64,000 bases of DNA from Candidatus Sulfopaludibacter sp. SbA3 (GTDB taxonomy: Bacteria > Acidobacteriota > Vicinamibacteria > Vicinamibacterales > UBA2999), in NCBI GenBank assembly GCA_945903265.1, contig CAMDNQ010000002.1, forward strand, positions 186,001 through 250,000. Reading direction: 5' to 3'. The notes below the pieces were generated by a model. That model made no database searches and had not been told where the DNA came from. It saw only the letters and a list, made by a program, of their open reading frames with translations. The position numbers and the translations under genes are program-made. This document shows, one piece after another, positions 20,654 to 59,964 of the stretch. Position 1 is the stretch's first letter. The number at the start of each line of letters is the position of its first letter.

Positions 20654-21094
20654 GTGGAAATCTCGACTGTCCGTAACCAGCTCACCCGGGCCATTGAGGC
20701 CGCTCGTCTTCGAAACCAGCGCAGGCGCGAGCTCACCGCCGAGGCCGAGCGCGGCTTCCAGCTGTTTCTGGACCAGGTCGCGACGCCGATAACCAGGATG
20801 GTCGCCACCGCGCTCAAGTCGGAAGGCCATCAGTTCATCGCAATGACGCCCGGAGGCGGATTGCGGCTCGCGTCAGAGACCCGCCGCGACGACTACATCG
20901 AGTTTGCCCTCGATACGGTCGCCGAACCTCCTCAGGTGATTGGCCGGATCAGTCAGACACGCGGCTCGAGAACGCTGAGCGACGAGCGGCCAGTGAAACC
21001 CGGCACTGCGCCCGACGCGATTACGGAAGAAGACGTGCTGGCGTTTCTTCTCGACGCGCTGGAGCCGTGGCTGGAAGGCCGTGGCCGCGCGTAG
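20654..21094 (+). CDS. Conserved hypothetical protein, helical N-terminus
   Basis: A 146-residue cytosolic protein I cannot assign. The first 50 residues are a charged helix rich in Arg/Glu, followed by VATPITRMVATALKSEGHQF and a small alpha/beta region, ending in a helical DVLAFLLDALEPWLEG. No signal peptide or membrane helix. GTG 20654 is preferred for the TACAAT hexamer just upstream; an ATG at 20594 would add 20 residues. The last 74 bases overlap the convergent menG gene, a larger overlap than usual. Confidence 0.55.
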   Translation: MEISTVRNQLTRAIEAARLRNQRRRELTAEAERGFQLFLDQVATPITRMVATALKSEGHQFIAMTPGGGLRLASETRRDDYIEFALDTVAEPPQVIGRISQTRGSRTLSDERPVKPGTAPDAITEEDVLAFLLDALEPWLEGRGRA

Positions 21095-21782
21095 CCACGT
21101 GAATGGCCATCAGGCCGCCCAGCAATAGCTCCACGCGCACGTCTCCGAAGCCTTCCTCGGCCATCATCGCGGCAACACCATTCGCACCCGGATAGAGGCG
21201 GATCGATTCCGGAATGTAGCGGTACGTGTCGGCATCGCCATGCAGCATCAGACCGAGTGTGCTGCCGACCGCAGTCAGGTACACGAGGTACGCCGCGCGC
21301 AACAGCGGCTGTTCCGGCCGATTGAAGTCGAGGGACAGCACTCTTCCCCCTGGCGCGAGGACCCGGTGAATCTCATGTAACGCGCCTCGCAAGTCCGGCA
21401 CGTTCCGCAGGCCATACCCCGTTGTCACGACGTCGAACGACCCTGCCGGGAACGGAAGCGCGAGCATGTCGCCGCAGACGACCGTCGTGCCTGCGCTGCG
21501 CGCCACAGCGAGCTGCAGCATGCGGTACGTGAGATCCAGCCCCACAACCGTCCGGGCGCCCGCGGCCGCACACGTCAGATCGCCTGTGCCGCAGGCAAGA
21601 TCGAGCACGCGGTCTCCGGGGGTGATGCGCGCCAGTGCGATGAGCCGCGCTTTCCAGCGGCGGTCCTGTCCGTATGAGAGAAAGCGGGTGATGAAGTCGT
21701 AGCGGTCGGCGATGGTGGCAAAGAGCCGCCGCACGTAGCGGCGTTTGCCCTCGGGCGTGGCAATCGTGGAGCGGAGTGTCAA
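21021..21782 (-). CDS. menG: Demethylmenaquinone methyltransferase (UbiE/MenG)
   Basis: A 253-residue SAM-dependent methyltransferase for the last step of menaquinone synthesis. Motifs: VRRLFATIADRYDFITRFLS, VLDLACGTGDLT (SAM loop), ALPFPAGSFDVVTTGYGLRN and FNRPEQPLLR, all typical of UbiE/MenG. The start is TTG 21782, which overlaps the TGA of the cupredoxin gene (TTGA) and gives the usual N-terminus. It is the last gene of the metal operon, an odd place for a quinone gene, but it fits the futalosine genes at 8.9-12 kb. Confidence 0.85.
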   Translation of the reverse strand: MTLRSTIATPEGKRRYVRRLFATIADRYDFITRFLSYGQDRRWKARLIALARITPGDRVLDLACGTGDLTCAAAGARTVVGLDLTYRMLQLAVARSAGTTVVCGDMLALPFPAGSFDVVTTGYGLRNVPDLRGALHEIHRVLAPGGRVLSLDFNRPEQPLLRAAYLVYLTAVGSTLGLMLHGDADTYRYIPESIRLYPGANGVAAMMAEEGFGDVRVELLLGGLMAIHVATRGHGLPATAPARREETPARLLP

Positions 21783-22174
21783 TAGATGCGGATTGTGCCT
21801 CGCATCATCAGCCGATGGGGCTGGCATTCGTACTGATACGTGCCCGGCCGCTTCGGCGCCGTGAACGTCACCTGGTCGGACTCGTTCCACCCGAGTTGAT
21901 CGACGGACTTCTTCAGGACGGGCACCGCGAAGTCGTGGATGATGCCCCGCTCCTGATTGCGCAGCGTGATCCGGACGCGCTCGCCCGCTTTAATGTCGAG
22001 CGTCGGGTTCGGCGTCTTCAGATCGCTGTCGAGATAGAACGCCATGCCCTTCGCGACGAGCGTGATCTCGCGCGTCGGCGTCTTGCTGAGCGCCGGTGCG
22101 AGTACGGCAAGGATCATCAGCACGGCCATGGCCGCGATCGCGCGAAGCGGAACCCGTTTCCCCAGTATGCTCAT
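21779..22174 (-). CDS. Membrane-anchored or secreted cupredoxin-like protein
   Basis: A 131-residue protein with an N-terminal hydrophobic segment (AIAAMAVLMILAVLAPALS) and a single plastocyanin-like domain. Candidate copper ligands are the His in IIHDFAVP and the Cys, His and Met of YECQPHRLMMRG, giving a type-1 pattern C-x2-H-x2-M. This suits a small electron carrier in the periplasm. It is coupled by ATGA to the ZIP gene and by TTGA to menG. The likely partner is the multicopper oxidase of the same operon. Confidence 0.75.
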   Translation of the reverse strand: MSILGKRVPLRAIAAMAVLMILAVLAPALSKTPTREITLVAKGMAFYLDSDLKTPNPTLDIKAGERVRITLRNQERGIIHDFAVPVLKKSVDQLGWNESDQVTFTAPKRPGTYQYECQPHRLMMRGTIRIY

Positions 22175-23358
22175 CCGACCAGCATCCCCGTCACGTACAT
22201 CACTGCAAAACCCGCGAACAATCCGGCCAGGACCGGGGCCGTGGCCAGCATCCGGCCGACCGATTCCTGTCGAGCCATGTGGCGCACAATCTGACCGATC
22301 ACCTGTCCGATAGCGCCGACCCCAATCCCCAGGAAGACGACCGCCCACACAGGCGAATACACAAACCCGCCGAGCCACGCGCCGGCGATCGTCGGAACGC
22401 CGCCGATCAACCCCAGCTTGATGAGGTCGACGACCGACACCCGCTGCTTCGCGCGGGCCAGCGGCGAGATGATCGCGAGCCCCTCGGTCGTGTTGTGCAG
22501 CGTGAAGCCGACGATGAGCAATGTTCCGAGCGCCGCCTCGCCAAGGGCGAACGCGGATCCAATCGCAAGCCCCTCGCCGAAGTTGTGAAGACCGATGCCG
22601 ACCGCGATGAGTACGGCGAGCACCCAGCCGCCCGTCCCGTCGCCAGCCCCGCCGCCCGCTCCGCGTTTTCGGCCTTTGAGCCACGCGCCGATAGCCTCGA
22701 GCAGAAGGTACGCACCGATTGCGGCAGTCGCGAACAGGACGACACCCTGGAACGATTCCGGCAACAGGTTCGCCGCCTCGAGTCCTTCACTTCCCCCGTC
22801 GATCAGAAGAAATGCGAGCAGGCCGACCGTCAGCGCCATCAGAAAATCCATGGCGCGGTCCGAGAGTCTCGCAATGAACGGATACCAGAGCAGCCCGATC
22901 ACCACCGGAAGGACACCGACATACACACCGATCAGCGTGAAGATGCCGAAGAACCGCGCGTTCGGGGTGGGACTCGCGACGGCAACGGGAATCTCGTGTT
23001 CGAACACCGTTCCGGTTGACGTCAGCAGCTTGACGACATGCGCGTCGCCCTGCACCCACGGATACGGAATACGCAGCGTCGTCCTGCCGAGGTGATCGAG
23101 GGCGGTTCCATCCTCGGTCGTAAATGTCCAGAACGCGTCGTCGATCTGGACCTGCGCGATCATCACCGGATCGGGCCCGTCGTTGAGCACGCTGACGACG
23201 ATGAAATCAGGTTCCAGGATGACGCGCTGGAATGTCAGGCGTTCCACCGGCGGGACATTTTCGCCGCGAAGCGCATCGGCCGGGCCGGAGCGGACGATCA
23301 CCGTCAGGAGGATGGCGAGAAGGACCAGCGGAATGAAGGCGAGGAGAACGCGGCGCAT
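22171..23358 (-). CDS. ZIP family metal transporter with extra periplasmic domain
   Basis: A 395-residue membrane protein. Residues about 5-25 form one helix, 30-135 a beta-rich soluble region not usual in bacterial ZIP proteins, and 140-395 the eight-helix ZIP core. Metal-site motifs HNFGEGLAIG and HNTTEGLAI are in the two central helices. ZIP proteins import divalent zinc, iron or manganese. The start overlaps the oxidase stop (TGATG). Its regulator is a DtxR-type protein encoded divergently, which points to manganese or iron rather than zinc. Confidence 0.8.
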   Translation of the reverse strand: MRRVLLAFIPLVLLAILLTVIVRSGPADALRGENVPPVERLTFQRVILEPDFIVVSVLNDGPDPVMIAQVQIDDAFWTFTTEDGTALDHLGRTTLRIPYPWVQGDAHVVKLLTSTGTVFEHEIPVAVASPTPNARFFGIFTLIGVYVGVLPVVIGLLWYPFIARLSDRAMDFLMALTVGLLAFLLIDGGSEGLEAANLLPESFQGVVLFATAAIGAYLLLEAIGAWLKGRKRGAGGGAGDGTGGWVLAVLIAVGIGLHNFGEGLAIGSAFALGEAALGTLLIVGFTLHNTTEGLAIISPLARAKQRVSVVDLIKLGLIGGVPTIAGAWLGGFVYSPVWAVVFLGIGVGAIGQVIGQIVRHMARQESVGRMLATAPVLAGLFAGFAVMYVTGMLVG

Positions 23359-24395
23359 CAGGTGGCCGGGGCCGCCTCGGCCCTGAAGAGACCCATCCAG
23401 CCCAGCTCGGCGAATTCGCTCTGGTGGGCGTGGAACATGAAATCGCCGGGATACCGGAATGTCGTCTCCAGGATGGCCCGCTCGCCCTGGCAGAGCATGA
23501 GTGTGTCGGTGCGCTCGGAGGGCGTGAGCGCCGTACCCGTGCGAATGACGTCGAAGAACATGCCATGCGTGTGCATGCTGTTGATCGGATCGAACTCGGT
23601 GAGGTTCACCAGATAGATCCGGACCAGGCGGCCGACCGTCACGCGAATCGGCTCGTGCATGTAGGCGTTGGCCACCGTGTTCGCGGCATACACCTCGTTC
23701 TCGACATCGAAGTTCGTGTCGAACGCGTTCATCACCATCACCATCTCGTCGGCCGGCGCTCTCCCCTCGCGGGGATCGATGATGAACGTGCCGTACAGGC
23801 CTTTGTGGATATGGCGCTTCAGCGGCACGGTGTGGCAGTGATAGAGATGCAGACCGAACGGGTCGGCGTCGAACTCGTAGACGAACGTCTCGCCTGGAAA
23901 AACTTCCTGCCCAGGAAGCGCGCCGTCCATTGCCGGCATGTGCCATCCATGGAAGTGGATCGAATGCGGGTGGCTCCCGGAATTCCTGAACGTCACCTTG
24001 ACGCGATCGCCTTCGGTGGCTCGAATCGTCGGCCCCGGCACCTGCCCGTTGTACGTCCAGGCCGGAAAGAACAGGCCGGGCGCGATCTCGATGTCGCGAT
24101 CGACCGCGTAGATCTCGTACTCGCGGAGCATCGTGCCGTCGGGACGGGGCGTTTCCTTGTAGAACTTTGCGCGCGCGTCCGGTTCCAGCTCCGAGAAGTT
24201 CCAGTTGCGCAGGAAGGTCGTCGGATTAAACGCGTCGAGCGACGGCGTCCCGACCGTGCCCATGACATGTGAGCCATGCGCCTGGTGCCGGCCCTGGCCG
24301 GCGGTCTGTCCGGACAGCTTCGCGCCAAGGAGGCTTCCGCTCAGCGACGCCAGTCCCGTCGCCTGCAACCACCCGCGCCGGCTCATCGTCCACAT
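23358..24395 (-). CDS. Two-domain multicopper oxidase (Tat-exported)
   Basis: A 345-residue exported enzyme. SRRGWLQATGLASLSG near the start is a twin-arginine signal. Domain 1 has HSIHFHGWH and HLYHCHTVPLKRHIHKG; domain 2 has NSMHTHGMFF and FMFHAHQSEFAELGW. The only type-1-like cysteine is in domain 1, the pattern of trimeric two-domain laccases or nitrite-reductase-like oxidases with the trinuclear site between subunits. Oxidation of Fe(II), Mn(II), Cu(I) or phenols is possible. It is the first gene of the operon. ATG 24386 is an alternative start closer to the twin arginines. Confidence 0.82.
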   Translation of the reverse strand: MWTMSRRGWLQATGLASLSGSLLGAKLSGQTAGQGRHQAHGSHVMGTVGTPSLDAFNPTTFLRNWNFSELEPDARAKFYKETPRPDGTMLREYEIYAVDRDIEIAPGLFFPAWTYNGQVPGPTIRATEGDRVKVTFRNSGSHPHSIHFHGWHMPAMDGALPGQEVFPGETFVYEFDADPFGLHLYHCHTVPLKRHIHKGLYGTFIIDPREGRAPADEMVMVMNAFDTNFDVENEVYAANTVANAYMHEPIRVTVGRLVRIYLVNLTEFDPINSMHTHGMFFDVIRTGTALTPSERTDTLMLCQGERAILETTFRYPGDFMFHAHQSEFAELGWMGLFRAEAAPAT

Positions 24396-24410
24396 TTTGA
24401 TGAGTCAAAA
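24395..24410. promoter_or_regulatory. Palindromic operator 1, DtxR/MntR type
   Basis: TTTTGATGAGTCAAAA is a perfect 6+4+6 palindrome touching the multicopper oxidase start. It overlaps TATTTT, a possible minus-strand -10. The half-site TCAAAA/AGTCAA resembles manganese-repressor sites of the DtxR family. Confidence 0.5.
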
Positions 24411-24422
24411 ATACAGTGGAGA

Positions 24423-24436
24423 TGACTAAAAAGTCA
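24423..24436. promoter_or_regulatory. Palindromic operator 2, DtxR/MntR type
   Basis: TGACTAAAAAGTCA is a perfect 5+4+5 palindrome, 28 bases from operator 1 and sharing the AGTCAAA half-site. It lies in the 79-base gap between the divergent oxidase operon and the dtxR-like gene, so one regulator could control both. A further half-site, CAAAAGTC, is at 24450-24457. Confidence 0.5.
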
Positions 24437-24460
24437 AATAACTGAGCTTCAAAAGTCGGC

Positions 24461-24474: not shown

Positions 24475-25146
24475 ATGCTGCCTTCCAGCACCGTCGAGAA
24501 CTACCTCAAGGCTATCTATCTGGGGGCGGGCGCCCTCACGCCTCCCAGCCGCCTGGTGCCGATGGGCCAACTGGCGGGTGCGCTTGGCGTGGCGCCGGGC
24601 ACCGCAACGACGATGGTGAAGACGCTCGCCGAATCGGGTCTCGTCGAATACGAGCCGTATGCCGGGGTCGCGCTGACGAAGGCCGGCCAGAAGCTCGCGG
24701 CGCTCGTCGTCCGCCGCCACCGGGTCATCGAGATGTTTCTGGTGCGGATGATGGGCTACGGCTGGGACGAGGTCCATGACGAGGCCGAGCAGATGGAACA
24801 CGTCGTCTCCGATCGCCTCATCGACCGGATGGACGAAATGCTCGGCCGCCCCGAAGTGGATCCTCACGGCGATCCGATTCCGACTCCGGAGGGGATCGTC
24901 AAGCCGCAGCCGATGCAGAGCCTGCTGACCTGCCCCCTTGCGACGCCCGTCACGATTACGCGCGTCATCGACCAGGACAAGGTCTTCCTGCGGTTCATCG
25001 AGAAGCACAACCTGAAACCTGGGGAATCGATCGAGGTCGAGGCGCGGGACGCGGCGTCCGACAGCGTCCGCGTCCGGGGCCGCGATGAGCAGCGCATCAC
25101 GATCGGGACGAAAGCCGCGTCCAAGCTGCTCGTGCAGGCGCGCTAG
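24475..25146 (+). CDS. DtxR/MntR-family metal-dependent repressor
   Basis: A 223-residue three-domain regulator. Residues 1-65 form the winged helix (VENYLKAIYLG, MGQLAGALGVAPGTATTMVK), 66-140 the metal-binding dimerisation domain (GYGWDEVHDEAEQMEH, then DPHGDPIPTP), and 150-223 a FeoA-like SH3 domain. It represses metal uptake genes when loaded with Mn(II) or Fe(II). It is transcribed away from the multicopper oxidase/ZIP operon across two palindromes. ATG 24475 is chosen; a TTG at 24466 would add three residues. Confidence 0.85.
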   Translation: MLPSSTVENYLKAIYLGAGALTPPSRLVPMGQLAGALGVAPGTATTMVKTLAESGLVEYEPYAGVALTKAGQKLAALVVRRHRVIEMFLVRMMGYGWDEVHDEAEQMEHVVSDRLIDRMDEMLGRPEVDPHGDPIPTPEGIVKPQPMQSLLTCPLATPVTITRVIDQDKVFLRFIEKHNLKPGESIEVEARDAASDSVRVRGRDEQRITIGTKAASKLLVQAR

Positions 25147-25150
25147 TTCT

Positions 25151-25819
25151 TCAGCCGCTGAATCCCTTCAGCGCGCCTACCAAATCCACCGGCCTGGAAA
25201 TCCGCAGGTCCGAAGGCCTCAGCTGCTCCTCGCGGATCGTGCGCGCGCCAAACCCGTACTCCGCCAGACAGAACCCGGTTCCCGCCGCGGCGGCCGTCGC
25301 CGCGTCGATGTGCGAATCGCCCACCAGCACCGTCGTGTCGGGAGTCGCGGCGTGATCAGCGATCAGGTGCAGCAGGCCCGCCGGATCGGGCTTTCGCGGA
25401 AACGGTCCGTCACCGCCGACCGACGCTGAAAAGAACGGCGCGAGCTCGAGCTCCTCGAGCAGTCGTTGTGTATGGTCCAGCGGCTTGTTCGTGAGGACAG
25501 CGCAGTGGCTCCGCTGAGTCAGGACCTGCAGCGCCTCGATGATTCCTGGATACGGACGCGTTGTGCGCGTCAGGCGCTGGTCGTAGTGCTCGAGGAAACG
25601 CGAGAGGCTCCTGTCGTTCATCTGAAGCCGGGCGGCGTCGAATGCCCGGCGAATCAGGGCTGCGGCGCCGTCACCGACCATCGACGCGATCGATGCCAGC
25701 GGCAGCGCTTCCGCACCATCCTCGACAAGCAGCGCATTGACCGAGTCTGCGAGATCCCGCTCGGAGTCGATCAGCGTGCCGTCGAGATCGAACACGATCA
25801 GCCCGCGTAGGTTGCCCAT
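25151..25819 (-). CDS. HAD-superfamily phosphatase (phosphoglycolate phosphatase-like)
   Basis: A 222-residue cytosolic phosphatase. Motif I is VFDLDGTLIDSERDL, motif II is VLTNKP, the motif III lysine is in FPRKPDPAG, and motif IV is LVGDSHIDAATA. The helical cap matches the Gph/PGP subgroup, so 2-phosphoglycolate salvage is the best guess; other small phosphoesters are possible. It overlaps the queD stop by 22 bases. ATG 25819 (MGNLRGLIVFDLDG) is chosen over one six codons upstream. Confidence 0.78.
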   Translation of the reverse strand: MGNLRGLIVFDLDGTLIDSERDLADSVNALLVEDGAEALPLASIASMVGDGAAALIRRAFDAARLQMNDRSLSRFLEHYDQRLTRTTRPYPGIIEALQVLTQRSHCAVLTNKPLDHTQRLLEELELAPFFSASVGGDGPFPRKPDPAGLLHLIADHAATPDTTVLVGDSHIDAATAAAAGTGFCLAEYGFGARTIREEQLRPSDLRISRPVDLVGALKGFSG

Positions 25820-26199
25820 GACGAAGGGGTCTCCCACACGGTGACGCGCACGACCGGCAGCCCCTGCTCGCGCGACACGTCGTACAGGAGGCGCGCGATG
25901 CGTTCCGCGGTCGGGTTACTGTCGACGACGAACACCGGCTCGCCGAGCGCTTTGAGCGACGCGACGAGGGGATCGTCGTGCCGCAGAATCATCCGGTGAT
26001 CGAGCTCGCGATCGATCCATCCCTTCACGAGGCGCTTGATGTCGCCGAAGTCGGCGACCATGTTGCGCGCGTCGAGCGCTTCGGCGCGGATTTCGATCTC
26101 GGCGACCGCGTTATGGCCGTGCGGATGCTGGCACATCCCGTCGTAATCCATCAGACGGTGCCCGTAGCAGAAGTCGATGCGCTTGGTGACCGAATACAT
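25798..26199 (-). CDS. queD: 6-carboxytetrahydropterin synthase (QueD)
   Basis: A 133-residue zinc enzyme that makes 6-carboxytetrahydropterin from dihydroneopterin triphosphate, the second step toward queuosine. Zinc ligands are His14, His27 and His29; Cys23 in the CQHPHGH motif is the catalytic cysteine. A C-terminal ETPSSWATY segment binds substrate. It is transcribed away from queC with a shared 14-base palindrome between them. Confidence 0.87.
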   Translation of the reverse strand: MYSVTKRIDFCYGHRLMDYDGMCQHPHGHNAVAEIEIRAEALDARNMVADFGDIKRLVKGWIDRELDHRMILRHDDPLVASLKALGEPVFVVDSNPTAERIARLLYDVSREQGLPVVRVTVWETPSSWATYAG

Positions 26200-26202
26200 G
26201 GA

Positions 26203-26216
26203 CTGTAATCTTACAG
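26203..26216. promoter_or_regulatory. Shared palindrome with divergent -10 elements, queD/queC
   Basis: CTGTAATCTTACAG (6+2+6 inverted repeat) fills most of the 21-base gap between the two genes. It offers TAATCT on the plus strand, nine bases before queC, and TAAGAT on the minus strand, eight before queD, so the same sequence may be both promoters and an operator. Confidence 0.45.
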
Positions 26217-26220
26217 GCTG

Positions 26221-26889
26221 ATGTCTTCGACGGCCGTTCTGCTGTCAGCAGGTTTGGATAGCGCGGTGCTCGCCGCCTCTGAGGCGCGCACGCAGCGCAT
26301 CCATCCGATCTACGTCAGCACCGGGCTCGCATGGGAAGCGCGTGAGCTTGCCGCGCTCGAGCGGCTGCTGTCAGCGCCGCCGCTTGCGGGCAGAACCGAG
26401 CCGCTCGCACGCCTGTCGTTCACCGTGCACGATCTCTATCCGGCGGGGCACTGGGCGCTCCGAGGTACGCCACCGGCATTTGATACGCCTGATGAAGACG
26501 TGTATCTCACGGGACGCAACATTGCGCTCCTGAGCAAATCCGCGATTTACGCGGCGCAGCACCAGATCGGGCGCATCGTGCTCGGGCCGCTGGCGGGCAA
26601 CCCGTTTCCCGATGCCACTCGCACGTTCTTCGACGCGATGGCCGAGGCGCTCTCCCTCGGTCTCAATCACACGATCCGCATCGACACGCCGTTCGCGGCG
26701 ATGGATAAGAGCGACGTCATCCGTCTGGGTTTGGAACTGGGCGTTGCGCTTGAACTGACGCTGTCGTGTATGAATCCTCAGGCCGATCTGCACTGCGGTC
26801 AGTGCAGCAAATGCCGCGAGCGCCGGGATGCGTTTGCCGAAGCGGGTGTTGCCGATCCGACCCGTTACGCGACCAGGCCGCTACGCTGA
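26221..26889 (+). CDS. queC: 7-cyano-7-deazaguanine synthase (QueC)
   Basis: A 222-residue ATP-dependent ligase that turns 7-carboxy-7-deazaguanine into preQ0. The PP-loop is SAGLDS at residues 9-14 (usually SGGMDS, so one glycine is replaced by alanine). The zinc site is C183, C192, C195 and C198 (CMNPQADLHCGQCSKC). The family is slightly divergent but all key elements are present. queE and queF are not in the window. The 3' end overlaps nagA by nine bases. Confidence 0.83.
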   Translation: MSSTAVLLSAGLDSAVLAASEARTQRIHPIYVSTGLAWEARELAALERLLSAPPLAGRTEPLARLSFTVHDLYPAGHWALRGTPPAFDTPDEDVYLTGRNIALLSKSAIYAAQHQIGRIVLGPLAGNPFPDATRTFFDAMAEALSLGLNHTIRIDTPFAAMDKSDVIRLGLELGVALELTLSCMNPQADLHCGQCSKCRERRDAFAEAGVADPTRYATRPLR

Positions 26890-58524: not shown

Positions 58525-59310
58525 CTAACGCGCGGCAGTCTGCTGCACGGGGCCGCCCTTCTTGCCGCCGAACAGTCCGGCGAACAGAAGCCATGCAAGT
58601 GGCAGGGCGACGAGCAGATACGTCAGGTACTGGCCGTAGATGCCTTCAGGCCCGTACGGTTCGGTCGCCCAGTGCCACCGCTCGGCAAAGTCCGGCGGAA
58701 AGACGCTCGCTTCGGTGAGCTCGTGGAAGCCGTAGATCAACAGCTGCACGACGAAGACAGCGAGGAACACCGCCGTCACCTGGAAGAAGAGCCCGAGGTT
58801 CACGCGATGCCCGTAGCGGGACCAGAGCGCCGCGACGACGGCCGCGCAGATCGTGCCGGCCACCGCTCCACCGACCATACTCGCGGCACCGCTCTGGGAG
58901 AGCAGCGCATTCATCAGCAGGACGGTCTCCATGCCTTCGCGCGTGATCATGAGCAGCGTAAAGAAGAACACGCCCGCAAATGCCTTGGTCCCGAGTTGCA
59001 TCGCGCTCTCGCCAAGCCGGGTTTCGATCTCGCGCTTGATGTGTTTCGCATGCCGCCACATATGGACGATCAGTGATGCGACGAGCACGGCGGCGGCGAG
59101 CGCCAGGACGCCCTCCCACAGCGCTTGATTTGACGCACGCTGGAACAGGATGCCGGCGATGACGCTGACGATAATCGAGGCGCCAATCCCCCAGTACACC
59201 GCGGGAATCAGTTGATGCCGGCCGGTCTTCCGCAGGTACGCGAGGCTGATGGCAATGATCAGAAAGGCCTCGAGCCCTTCGCGCAGGGTGATGACGAACG
59301 CCTGAAGCAT
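58525..59310 (-). CDS. FTR1-family iron permease
   Basis: A 261-residue membrane protein with seven helices. The iron motifs are LREGLEAFLII near residue 10 and MITREGMETVLLM in the middle (REGLE/REGxE). FTR1 imports Fe(III) made by a ferroxidase; the multicopper oxidase at 23.4 kb is a possible functional partner but is not linked. ATG 59310 has GAGGG seven bases upstream. First gene of an operon with osmC and the DUF1624 gene, downstream of a terminator. Confidence 0.85.
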   Translation of the reverse strand: MLQAFVITLREGLEAFLIIAISLAYLRKTGRHQLIPAVYWGIGASIIVSVIAGILFQRASNQALWEGVLALAAAVLVASLIVHMWRHAKHIKREIETRLGESAMQLGTKAFAGVFFFTLLMITREGMETVLLMNALLSQSGAASMVGGAVAGTICAAVVAALWSRYGHRVNLGLFFQVTAVFLAVFVVQLLIYGFHELTEASVFPPDFAERWHWATEPYGPEGIYGQYLTYLLVALPLAWLLFAGLFGGKKGGPVQQTAAR

Positions 59311-59350
59311 GCTGAAACCCTCGAAATTGAGATTGGTTCGCAAATAATAC

Positions 59351-59415: not shown

Positions 59416-59964
59416 TTACTTGATCGGGACCGTCCAGAGATAGATTGTCCGTCCGTTGACGTTCATCGTCTGCTGCGGCTTGATGTCGCCCATGTCGAAG
59501 GCGTGCGACACCACCCGGGTCCCCGGCTTCAGCTCGGCGTTGAGCTTCGGCATGACCTTCAGATTGAGCGAGGGCAGCAGGTAGAGCGTGACGACGGTCG
59601 CCTCGCTGATGTTGGTCGTGAACAGATCCTGGTTCAGGAAGCGGACCTTGTCGCCCTGCCCTGACGCCTGCAGGTTGGCGGTCGCCTCTTTGATACGCTG
59701 CGGATCGATGTCGATCCCGACGCCGCGCGCCCCGTACGTCCTGGCCGCAGTGATGGGGATTCGTCCATCGCCTGAACCAAGGTCGTACACCACGTCGGTC
59801 GCGGAGACCTTCGCGAGCTTGAGCATGGCATCGACGACTTCCTGGGGCGTTGGTACGAAGATGACGTCTGGCGACCGCAGCGGAGCGGGCGCCGTCTGCG
59901 CCAGGGCCGGTGCGGCAAGCGCCGCAAGAATCGCAAGTGACAGGACACAAGTACGCAGTTTCAT
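59416..59964 (-). CDS. Secreted SAM-methyltransferase-like protein
   Basis: A 182-residue protein with a clear signal peptide (KLRTCVLSLAILAALAAPA, then LAQ) followed by a class-I methyltransferase core: VPTPQEVVDAML, VVYDLGSGDGRIPITAA (SAM loop), GIDIDPQRI, NQDLF, and a final beta hairpin. Such enzymes normally work in the cytosol where SAM is made, so export is odd. GGGAGG precedes the ATG. Function and substrate unknown. Confidence 0.75.
   Translation of the reverse strand: MKLRTCVLSLAILAALAAPALAQTAPAPLRSPDVIFVPTPQEVVDAMLKLAKVSATDVVYDLGSGDGRIPITAARTYGARGVGIDIDPQRIKEATANLQASGQGDKVRFLNQDLFTTNISEATVVTLYLLPSLNLKVMPKLNAELKPGTRVVSHAFDMGDIKPQQTMNVNGRTIYLWTVPIK

Follow-up and report, generated by a model that had tools for sequence, protein, structure and literature searches.

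A conserved multicopper oxidase-ZIP gene pair as a candidate manganese acquisition unit under an MntR-like regulator

A 64,000-nucleotide stretch of the genome of Candidatus Sulfopaludibacter sp. SbA3 (contig CAMDNQ010000002.1, positions 186,001 to 250,000; the whole stretch is here called the window) encodes an exported, two-domain multicopper oxidase (MCO), directly followed by a ZIP-fold metal importer and divergent from a gene for a DtxR-family regulator. Sequence comparisons suggested that oxidase and ZIP form, on balance, a widespread two-protein unit for manganese acquisition under an MntR-like sensor. Evidence for this interpretation came from gene order, conservation of copper ligands, near-invariant pairing of the two genes, MntR-type regulators and boxes, linkage to NRAMP genes and the operator/promoter layout.

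Conservation and spread of the oxidase-ZIP pair

A profile scan for the oxidase in about 85,000 genomes yielded 340 loci, of which the best 80 were read; as these were picked by similarity to the window oxidase, more distant members may differ, and relatedness inflates the counts. The 80 loci originated from Acidobacteria, Gemmatimonadota, DPANN archaea and others. A script found a ZIP gene directly after the oxidase gene in 73 of the 77 testable loci, while the four without a scripted ZIP comprised three coordinate artefacts and one contig that ended 0.5 kb downstream. In 59 of 72 loci the pair had a DtxR-type gene as its neighbor, which was divergent in Acidobacteria and lay upstream in the same orientation in Gemmatimonadota and DPANN archaea. 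The core of the cluster that an earlier, sequence-only reading (the original prediction) had described is thus kept in relatives, and the unit as a whole is larger than it appears in the window. Pairwise identities of MCO and ZIP were correlated (r 0.94), and those of DtxR correlated with either at about 0.89-0.90.

Occurrence of the oxidase within its own phylum was patchy (9 of 297 genomes), and oxidase relatives were found on 157 plasmids. In 21 plasmid contexts, which were hand-picked, diverse and automatically annotated, ZIP was immediately downstream of the oxidase in 20 and interrupted in the remaining one. On the Paroceanicella plasmid pD4M1E (L179:4603-8947), a TniB/TniQ-type transposon splits the ZIP gene directly after the oxidase gene. 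Plasmid-borne pairs were present in cultured Sinorhizobium, Sulfitobacter, Deinococcus, Rhodococcus, cyanobacteria and haloarchaea, with the order DtxR-MCO-ZIP-plastocyanin on the haloarchaeal plasmids. Viral contigs contained no ZIP relative and only a single MCO relative (36%), and therefore provided no viral link for the pair.

The oxidase and the importer

Scans against Pfam and NCBIfam identified Cu-oxidase_3 and Cu-oxidase_2 domains in the oxidase, whose Tat signal is SRRGWLQ. A type-1 Cys is present in only the first of its two cupredoxin domains (H-C-H, C187), which identifies the protein as a type-C enzyme. The type-1 site consists of C187, H144 and H195; the axial position is occupied by Leu200, and by Met in alphaproteobacterial and some other relatives. 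All eight histidines of the trinuclear center (H147, H149, H186, H188, H275, H277, H322, and H324) are present and, like the type-1 Cys/His/His, were invariant except for undetermined residues in alignments of 58 to 87 homologues. Roles of these ligands were assigned from those established for two-domain multicopper oxidases and NirK. The Tat-exported two-domain oxidase of the original prediction was thereby confirmed, with its trinuclear histidines intact in the alignment.

The best fold matches of a structure model of the oxidase were 7rab, 3gdc, 9cck, 3g5w, and 2zwn. Its nearest solved relatives were the dodecameric Marinithermus hydrothermalis protein 7rab (58% identity) and 3gdc (52%), the latter presumably from Arthrobacter FB24, with nitrite reductases as more distant structural relatives. 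Identification as NirK was rejected on score (TIGR02376, 104 bits versus a cut-off of 296) and on ligands. By homology to the oligomeric 7rab, the oxidase is predicted to be an oligomer that uses O2. An oxidase gene on a plasmid of strain FB24, about 51% identical to the window oxidase and probably the source of 3gdc, adjoins a DtxR gene and a ZIP gene.

The importer matched Zip in Pfam weakly (16.3 bits versus a cut-off of 35.1). It matched a BbZIP profile at 6.6e-11, and a structure model (pLDDT 93.5, built from 66 sequences) established that it is a ZIP by showing the BbZIP fold, with a Z of 20.4 to 8j1m over 241 residues. By sequence it is a divergent ZIP branch, for which the model predicts the same fold. 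Metal motifs are H258-N259-x-x-E262 in transmembrane helix (TM) 4 and H288-N289-x-x-E292 in TM5, with HNxxEG invariant. As read from the alignment with BbZIP, HN stands in for the QD pair of TM5, and neither the TM2 Met nor an acidic TM6 residue is kept. The model placed a 95-residue immunoglobulin (Ig)-like beta-sandwich (residues about 32-126) after the first helix and before the ZIP core, in agreement with the extra extracytoplasmic domain that had originally been predicted. The nearest folds of this domain were FlaF/FlaG archaellum stator domains (Z 11.9, root-mean-square deviation 1.7, 91 residues), a modeled likeness that says nothing certain about function. The ZIP profile covered the Ig-like domain in every plasmid relative checked, one copy being split by a transposon.

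Regulator, operator and promoter

The regulator, which contains Fe_dep_repress, Fe_dep_repr_C and FeoA domains (the last a FeoA-like C-terminal domain), is encoded by the only DtxR-family gene of the host genome. It carries Glu at the position of DtxR Cys102, and the combination of a winged helix, a metal domain and this acidic residue identifies it as MntR type. Relatives have Glu (55 of 65) or His (9 of 65) at this position. Among NCBIfam models the best match was the MntR model NF047407 (172 bits), and the best match in the PDB was 5zr4 (151 bits), MntR of M. tuberculosis, which scored far ahead of IdeR (about 62 bits) and DtxR.

The candidate operator region of the window regulator is TTTTGATGAGTCAAAA. 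Of 42 Acidobacterial loci, 37 carried a perfect TTTTGA-N4-TCAAAA palindrome upstream of the oxidase, a number that rose to 39 when one mismatch was allowed; one of the others had no upstream sequence. The palindrome was found in 22 of the 23 genomes searched, most of which had a single perfect copy; only one genome contained the reversed pattern. A TTGAC -35 element occurred at fixed spacing in 27 of the 42 loci, as compared to 0.3% of shuffles. The predicted operator lies over the -10 element of the oxidase promoter, which is the layout of a repressor site. A different DtxR-type box, TTTAG-N6-CTAAA, often precedes the oxidase in lineages without TTTTGA-N4-TCAAAA (L076, L083, L097, L096, L067, and L015).

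In single genomes, additional operator copies stood upstream of genes for CarboxypepD_reg outer-membrane-receptor-like proteins, for a TraF_2/PorV-like protein and for an ICMT-like methyltransferase. In the host genome, a copy with a single mismatch (L112:4927-7715; G000:C18) directly precedes a porin gene, after which come genes for a COX2/CuA-like cupredoxin and for a di-haem DHOR protein; this cluster is a possible second target of the window regulator. A second perfect copy in the same genome (L111:5110; G000:C10:107109) precedes a short, seemingly truncated PorV/TraF_2-like outer-membrane open reading frame of 143 aa, intact relatives of which (about 320 aa) follow this operator in L147 and L148. 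This set of operators would fit a nutrient-starvation regulon and uptake, without naming the metal. Two-mismatch matches in the host genome were about as numerous as in the control (12 versus 8) and were disregarded. An ICMT/PEMT-like membrane methyltransferase lies behind the operator in two Acidobacterial genomes (L141 and L142); such genes also occur near MCO-ZIP on Rubrobacter, Deinococcus and haloarchaeal plasmids (L167, L169, and L177).

Evidence on the metal

In seven of the 21 plasmid contexts (S. meliloti, Ensifer, Sinorhizobium M14, Sulfitobacter, Phyllobacterium, Paroceanicella, and Shinella), the gene divergent from the pair is named mntR in the PGAP annotation, and another DtxR-type gene was found near the pair in eight. 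Five rhizobial plasmids each contained exactly two ATAGC-N4-GCTAT palindromes in the stretches examined, both located between mntR and oxidase, and a 7-kb region around E. coli mntH contained a single match, with the identical core. An MntH-type NRAMP was encoded in or beside the cluster in eight of the 80 loci, from Acidobacteria, Gemmatimonadota, Woesearchaeota and Micrarchaeota (L022, L070, L074, L078, L081, L089, L091, and L095). Four of five NRAMPs scanned passed the curated MntH cut-off (L070 barely), and the truncated frame of L078 remained below it. NRAMP also accompanies the pair on Deinococcus, Ensifer and Rubrobacter plasmids. With these genomic associations, manganese is the best guess for the metal acquired by the pair.

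A 98-residue NRAMP remnant at L072:6665-6958, between DtxR and oxidase, takes the place of the full NRAMP of L081, an apparent case of gene decay. MntH-class NRAMP was less frequent among oxidase-encoding genomes (8/31 versus 11/20; Fisher p 0.044, kinship ignored), a difference considered too weak to count. The host genome (3.52 Mb, 98.9% complete), whose closest oxidase relatives are from Acidobacteria, showed no match to NRAMP, a ZnuA-type binding protein or FeoB_C; it encodes one plain ZIP and one FTR1 besides. An FTR1-family iron permease gene in the window (58525-59343, minus strand), downstream of an exported methyltransferase-like gene (59416-59964), is unlinked to oxidase-ZIP. FTR1 is apparently a separate ferric-type importer of the host, which could serve iron.

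Proposed mechanism and alternative explanations

In the proposed mechanism, the MntR-like sensor would repress oxidase and ZIP when manganese is sufficient, and the unit would be switched on when manganese is short. The Tat-exported oxidase would be located on the external side of the membrane, beside ZIP, with the Ig-like domain of the latter as its likely docking or hand-off site, and the ZIP core would import a divalent ion, presumably Mn(II). In one version, the oxidase would clear competing reduced ions such as Fe(II) and Cu(I), so that a broad-range importer could take up Mn(II) selectively; in another, it would act on the imported ion itself, in a coupling like that of Fet3-Ftr1. The cupredoxin encoded downstream would have an accessory role, probably by carrying copper or electrons for the oxidase, and menG would be a passenger. 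A tentative elaboration is a ZIP-based oxidase-permease machine, in which oxidation of Mn(II) to Mn(III), or of competing Fe(II), at the Ig-like domain would provide O2-driven selectivity or direction. Such a machine would represent the manganese equivalent of Fet3-Ftr1, present in both bacteria and archaea and disseminated by plasmids. Loss of Mn-oxidizing oxidases in P. putida lowers intracellular Mn (PMC3798386), which sets a precedent for an oxidase that aids uptake.

Several observations weigh against a role of the pair in manganese acquisition. Import of Mn(II) by ZIP or NRAMP requires no oxidation, which leaves the part of the oxidase unexplained. The regulator scored below the curated MntR cut-off (172 versus 350 bits for NF047407), and replacement of the BbZIP TM2 methionine and of one acidic residue may bear on selectivity of the importer. 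Some relatives adjoin ArsR- or Fur-type regulators, P-type ATPases, or CopC/CopD, PCuAC or Cbt genes, neighbors that make copper, zinc or cobalt possible as the metal. In Nitrososphaera viennensis, MCO1 and the adjacent permease were modestly up under Cu limitation, and copper uptake was proposed (PMC7785015). Acquisition or handling of copper, in which the oxidase would make Cu(II) from Cu(I), ZIP would import Cu(II) and the cupredoxin would carry copper, is indeed the published proposal for the MCO1-permease pair of ammonia-oxidizing archaea (AOA). It would agree with the CopC/CopD, PCuAC, SCO or copper-ATPase genes near the pair on several plasmids and with the cupredoxin that follows it in Acidobacteria and haloarchaea. 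However, the induction was small (log2 0.8-1.3 amid 1,547 changed genes; PMC7785015), the regulator is MntR-like in most contexts rather than of the CueR, CsoR or CopY type, and MntR boxes and MntH-type NRAMP are linked to the pair, which makes copper an unlikely explanation.

Iron acquisition by a ferroxidase-permease pair like Fet3-Ftr1, under an Fe-sensing DtxR repressor, would match the oxidase-permease layout and the frequent Fe sensing in the DtxR family; members of the ZIP and NRAMP families can transport Fe(II), and a FeoB_C match was lacking in the host genome. It is nevertheless judged quite unlikely, in view of Glu or His at the DtxR Cys102 position, the MntR-like 5zr4 as nearest solved regulator, well ahead of IdeR and DtxR, the separate FTR1 permease and the naming of plasmid regulators as MntR by PGAP. 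A respiratory or Mn(II)-oxidizing electron-transfer module, with oxidase and cupredoxin feeding or draining the menaquinone chain, was suggested by the operon that cupredoxin and menG share with the oxidase in the window. Cupredoxin was present in 37 of 39 Acidobacterial loci and missing from all testable loci of Gemmatimonadota and DPANN archaea, and menG followed it in 11 of 33 Acidobacterial loci. Moreover, no other MenG in the host genome exceeds the family cut-off, and DPANN archaea carry DtxR-MCO-ZIP-NRAMP. Cupredoxin and menG are thus optional parts of the oxidase-ZIP unit. With its limited occurrence and no second MenG in the genome, menG appears to be a housekeeping gene that is carried along; a respiratory use of the cupredoxin was dismissed because of how the gene is distributed, and such a module is very improbable. 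Of the functions that had originally been envisaged for the cluster, metal scavenging or uptake under a DtxR-type regulator is upheld, whereas electron passage through the cupredoxin to menaquinone is not, as a general purpose. There is also little to be said for metal resistance, in which the oxidase would detoxify periplasmic metal and the neighboring importer would merely share its regulator: plasmid copies are often located among heavy-metal efflux genes, but the near-invariant importer partner and a starvation-type repressor whose operator overlaps the promoter point to uptake.

Relation to known systems and implications

A ZIP gene adjoins MCO1 in most AOA, and MCO1 was earlier proposed to act in hydroxylamine oxidation (PMC5767755). 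As in the window, a gene for a two-domain type-C oxidase is immediately beside a zinc/iron permease gene in AOA (NVIE_000600/000590; PMC7785015, PMC5767755). This pair, likened here to the window pair by description, has been discussed for copper uptake or hydroxylamine oxidation, with no link to MntR or MntH. The N. maritimus oxidase 9cck shares 36% identity with the window oxidase, but has an extra C-terminal cupredoxin domain. Yeast Fet3-Ftr1 is likewise an oxidase/permease pair at the cell surface; in contrast, the window permease is a ZIP rather than FTR1, and regulator and linked genes point to Mn instead of Fe. With MntR-MntH regulons, the unit shares the MntR-type repressor, the E. coli-type MntR box (in rhizobia) and the NRAMP partner (in several lineages), but differs in that the regulated unit combines a multicopper oxidase with a ZIP that bears an Ig-like domain.

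In the open-access literature, no description of a multicopper oxidase or Ig-domain ZIP as an MntR target was found, nor any account of an MCO-ZIP unit tied to MntR or NRAMP. The M. hydrothermalis (7rab) and Arthrobacter FB24 (3gdc) proteins are of the same oxidase type, and their structure entries are without such functional context; laccase activity is cited for the M. hydrothermalis oxidase (PMC10673308). MCO-ZIP adjacency in AOA is already known, while the MntR/MntH link and the breadth of the pair appear undescribed in the open-access papers searched. The pair most likely belongs with oxidase-permease metal uptake, as a little-described way of acquiring manganese.

If this interpretation holds, many microbes, uncultured as well as cultured, would take up manganese by means of an oxidase that the literature searched has not tied to this metal, and a common group of two-domain oxidases would gain a physiological role. 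Should the AOA MCO1-ZIP be orthologous, occurrence of the pair with MntR/MntH in organisms not known to nitrify would indicate metal supply rather than hydroxylamine oxidation. The cultured carriers Sinorhizobium, Rhodococcus and Leptolyngbya make the manganese interpretation directly testable.

Locus layout and accessory genes

Features of the locus are listed in Table 1. Junctions between oxidase, ZIP, cupredoxin and menG are overlaps of 1-4 bases (TGATG, ATGA, TTGA), and the four genes are translationally coupled because stop and start codons overlap at each junction.

Table 1. Coordinates of genes and regulatory elements of the oxidase-ZIP locus in the window.
Feature	Position	Strand	Remarks
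Multicopper oxidase	23358..24395	-	345 aa, two-domain, type-C layout, Tat signal
ZIP-fold metal importer with extra N-terminal Ig-like domain	22171..23358	-	
Exported cupredoxin	21779..22174	-	131 aa, complete type-1 site
menG/ubiE demethylmenaquinone methyltransferase	about 21021..21782	-	TTG start overlaps cupredoxin stop
DtxR-family regulator, MntR type	24475..25146	+	Divergent from oxidase operon
Palindromic operator TTTTGA-TGAG-TCAAAA (predicted)	24395..24410	.	Immediately before oxidase start, overlaps -10 element
Sigma-70-like promoter TTGACT-N18-TATTTT, oxidase operon (predicted)	24405..24440 (ends approximate)	-	

The original prediction of four coupled genes under a DtxR-type regulator was therefore correct in both positions and junctions, and its assignments of the last two genes also held. 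The cupredoxin matched the families Cupredoxin_1 and Copper-bind, with type-1 ligands H80, C117, H120, and M124, and menG scored above the cut-off of TIGR01934 (197.7 versus 158.35 bits), as expected of a MenG/UbiE methyltransferase. Near the regulator, within window positions 25798-26889, a queD-like gene (25798-26199, minus strand) and a queC-like gene (26221-26889, plus strand) were recognized by eye from their translations.

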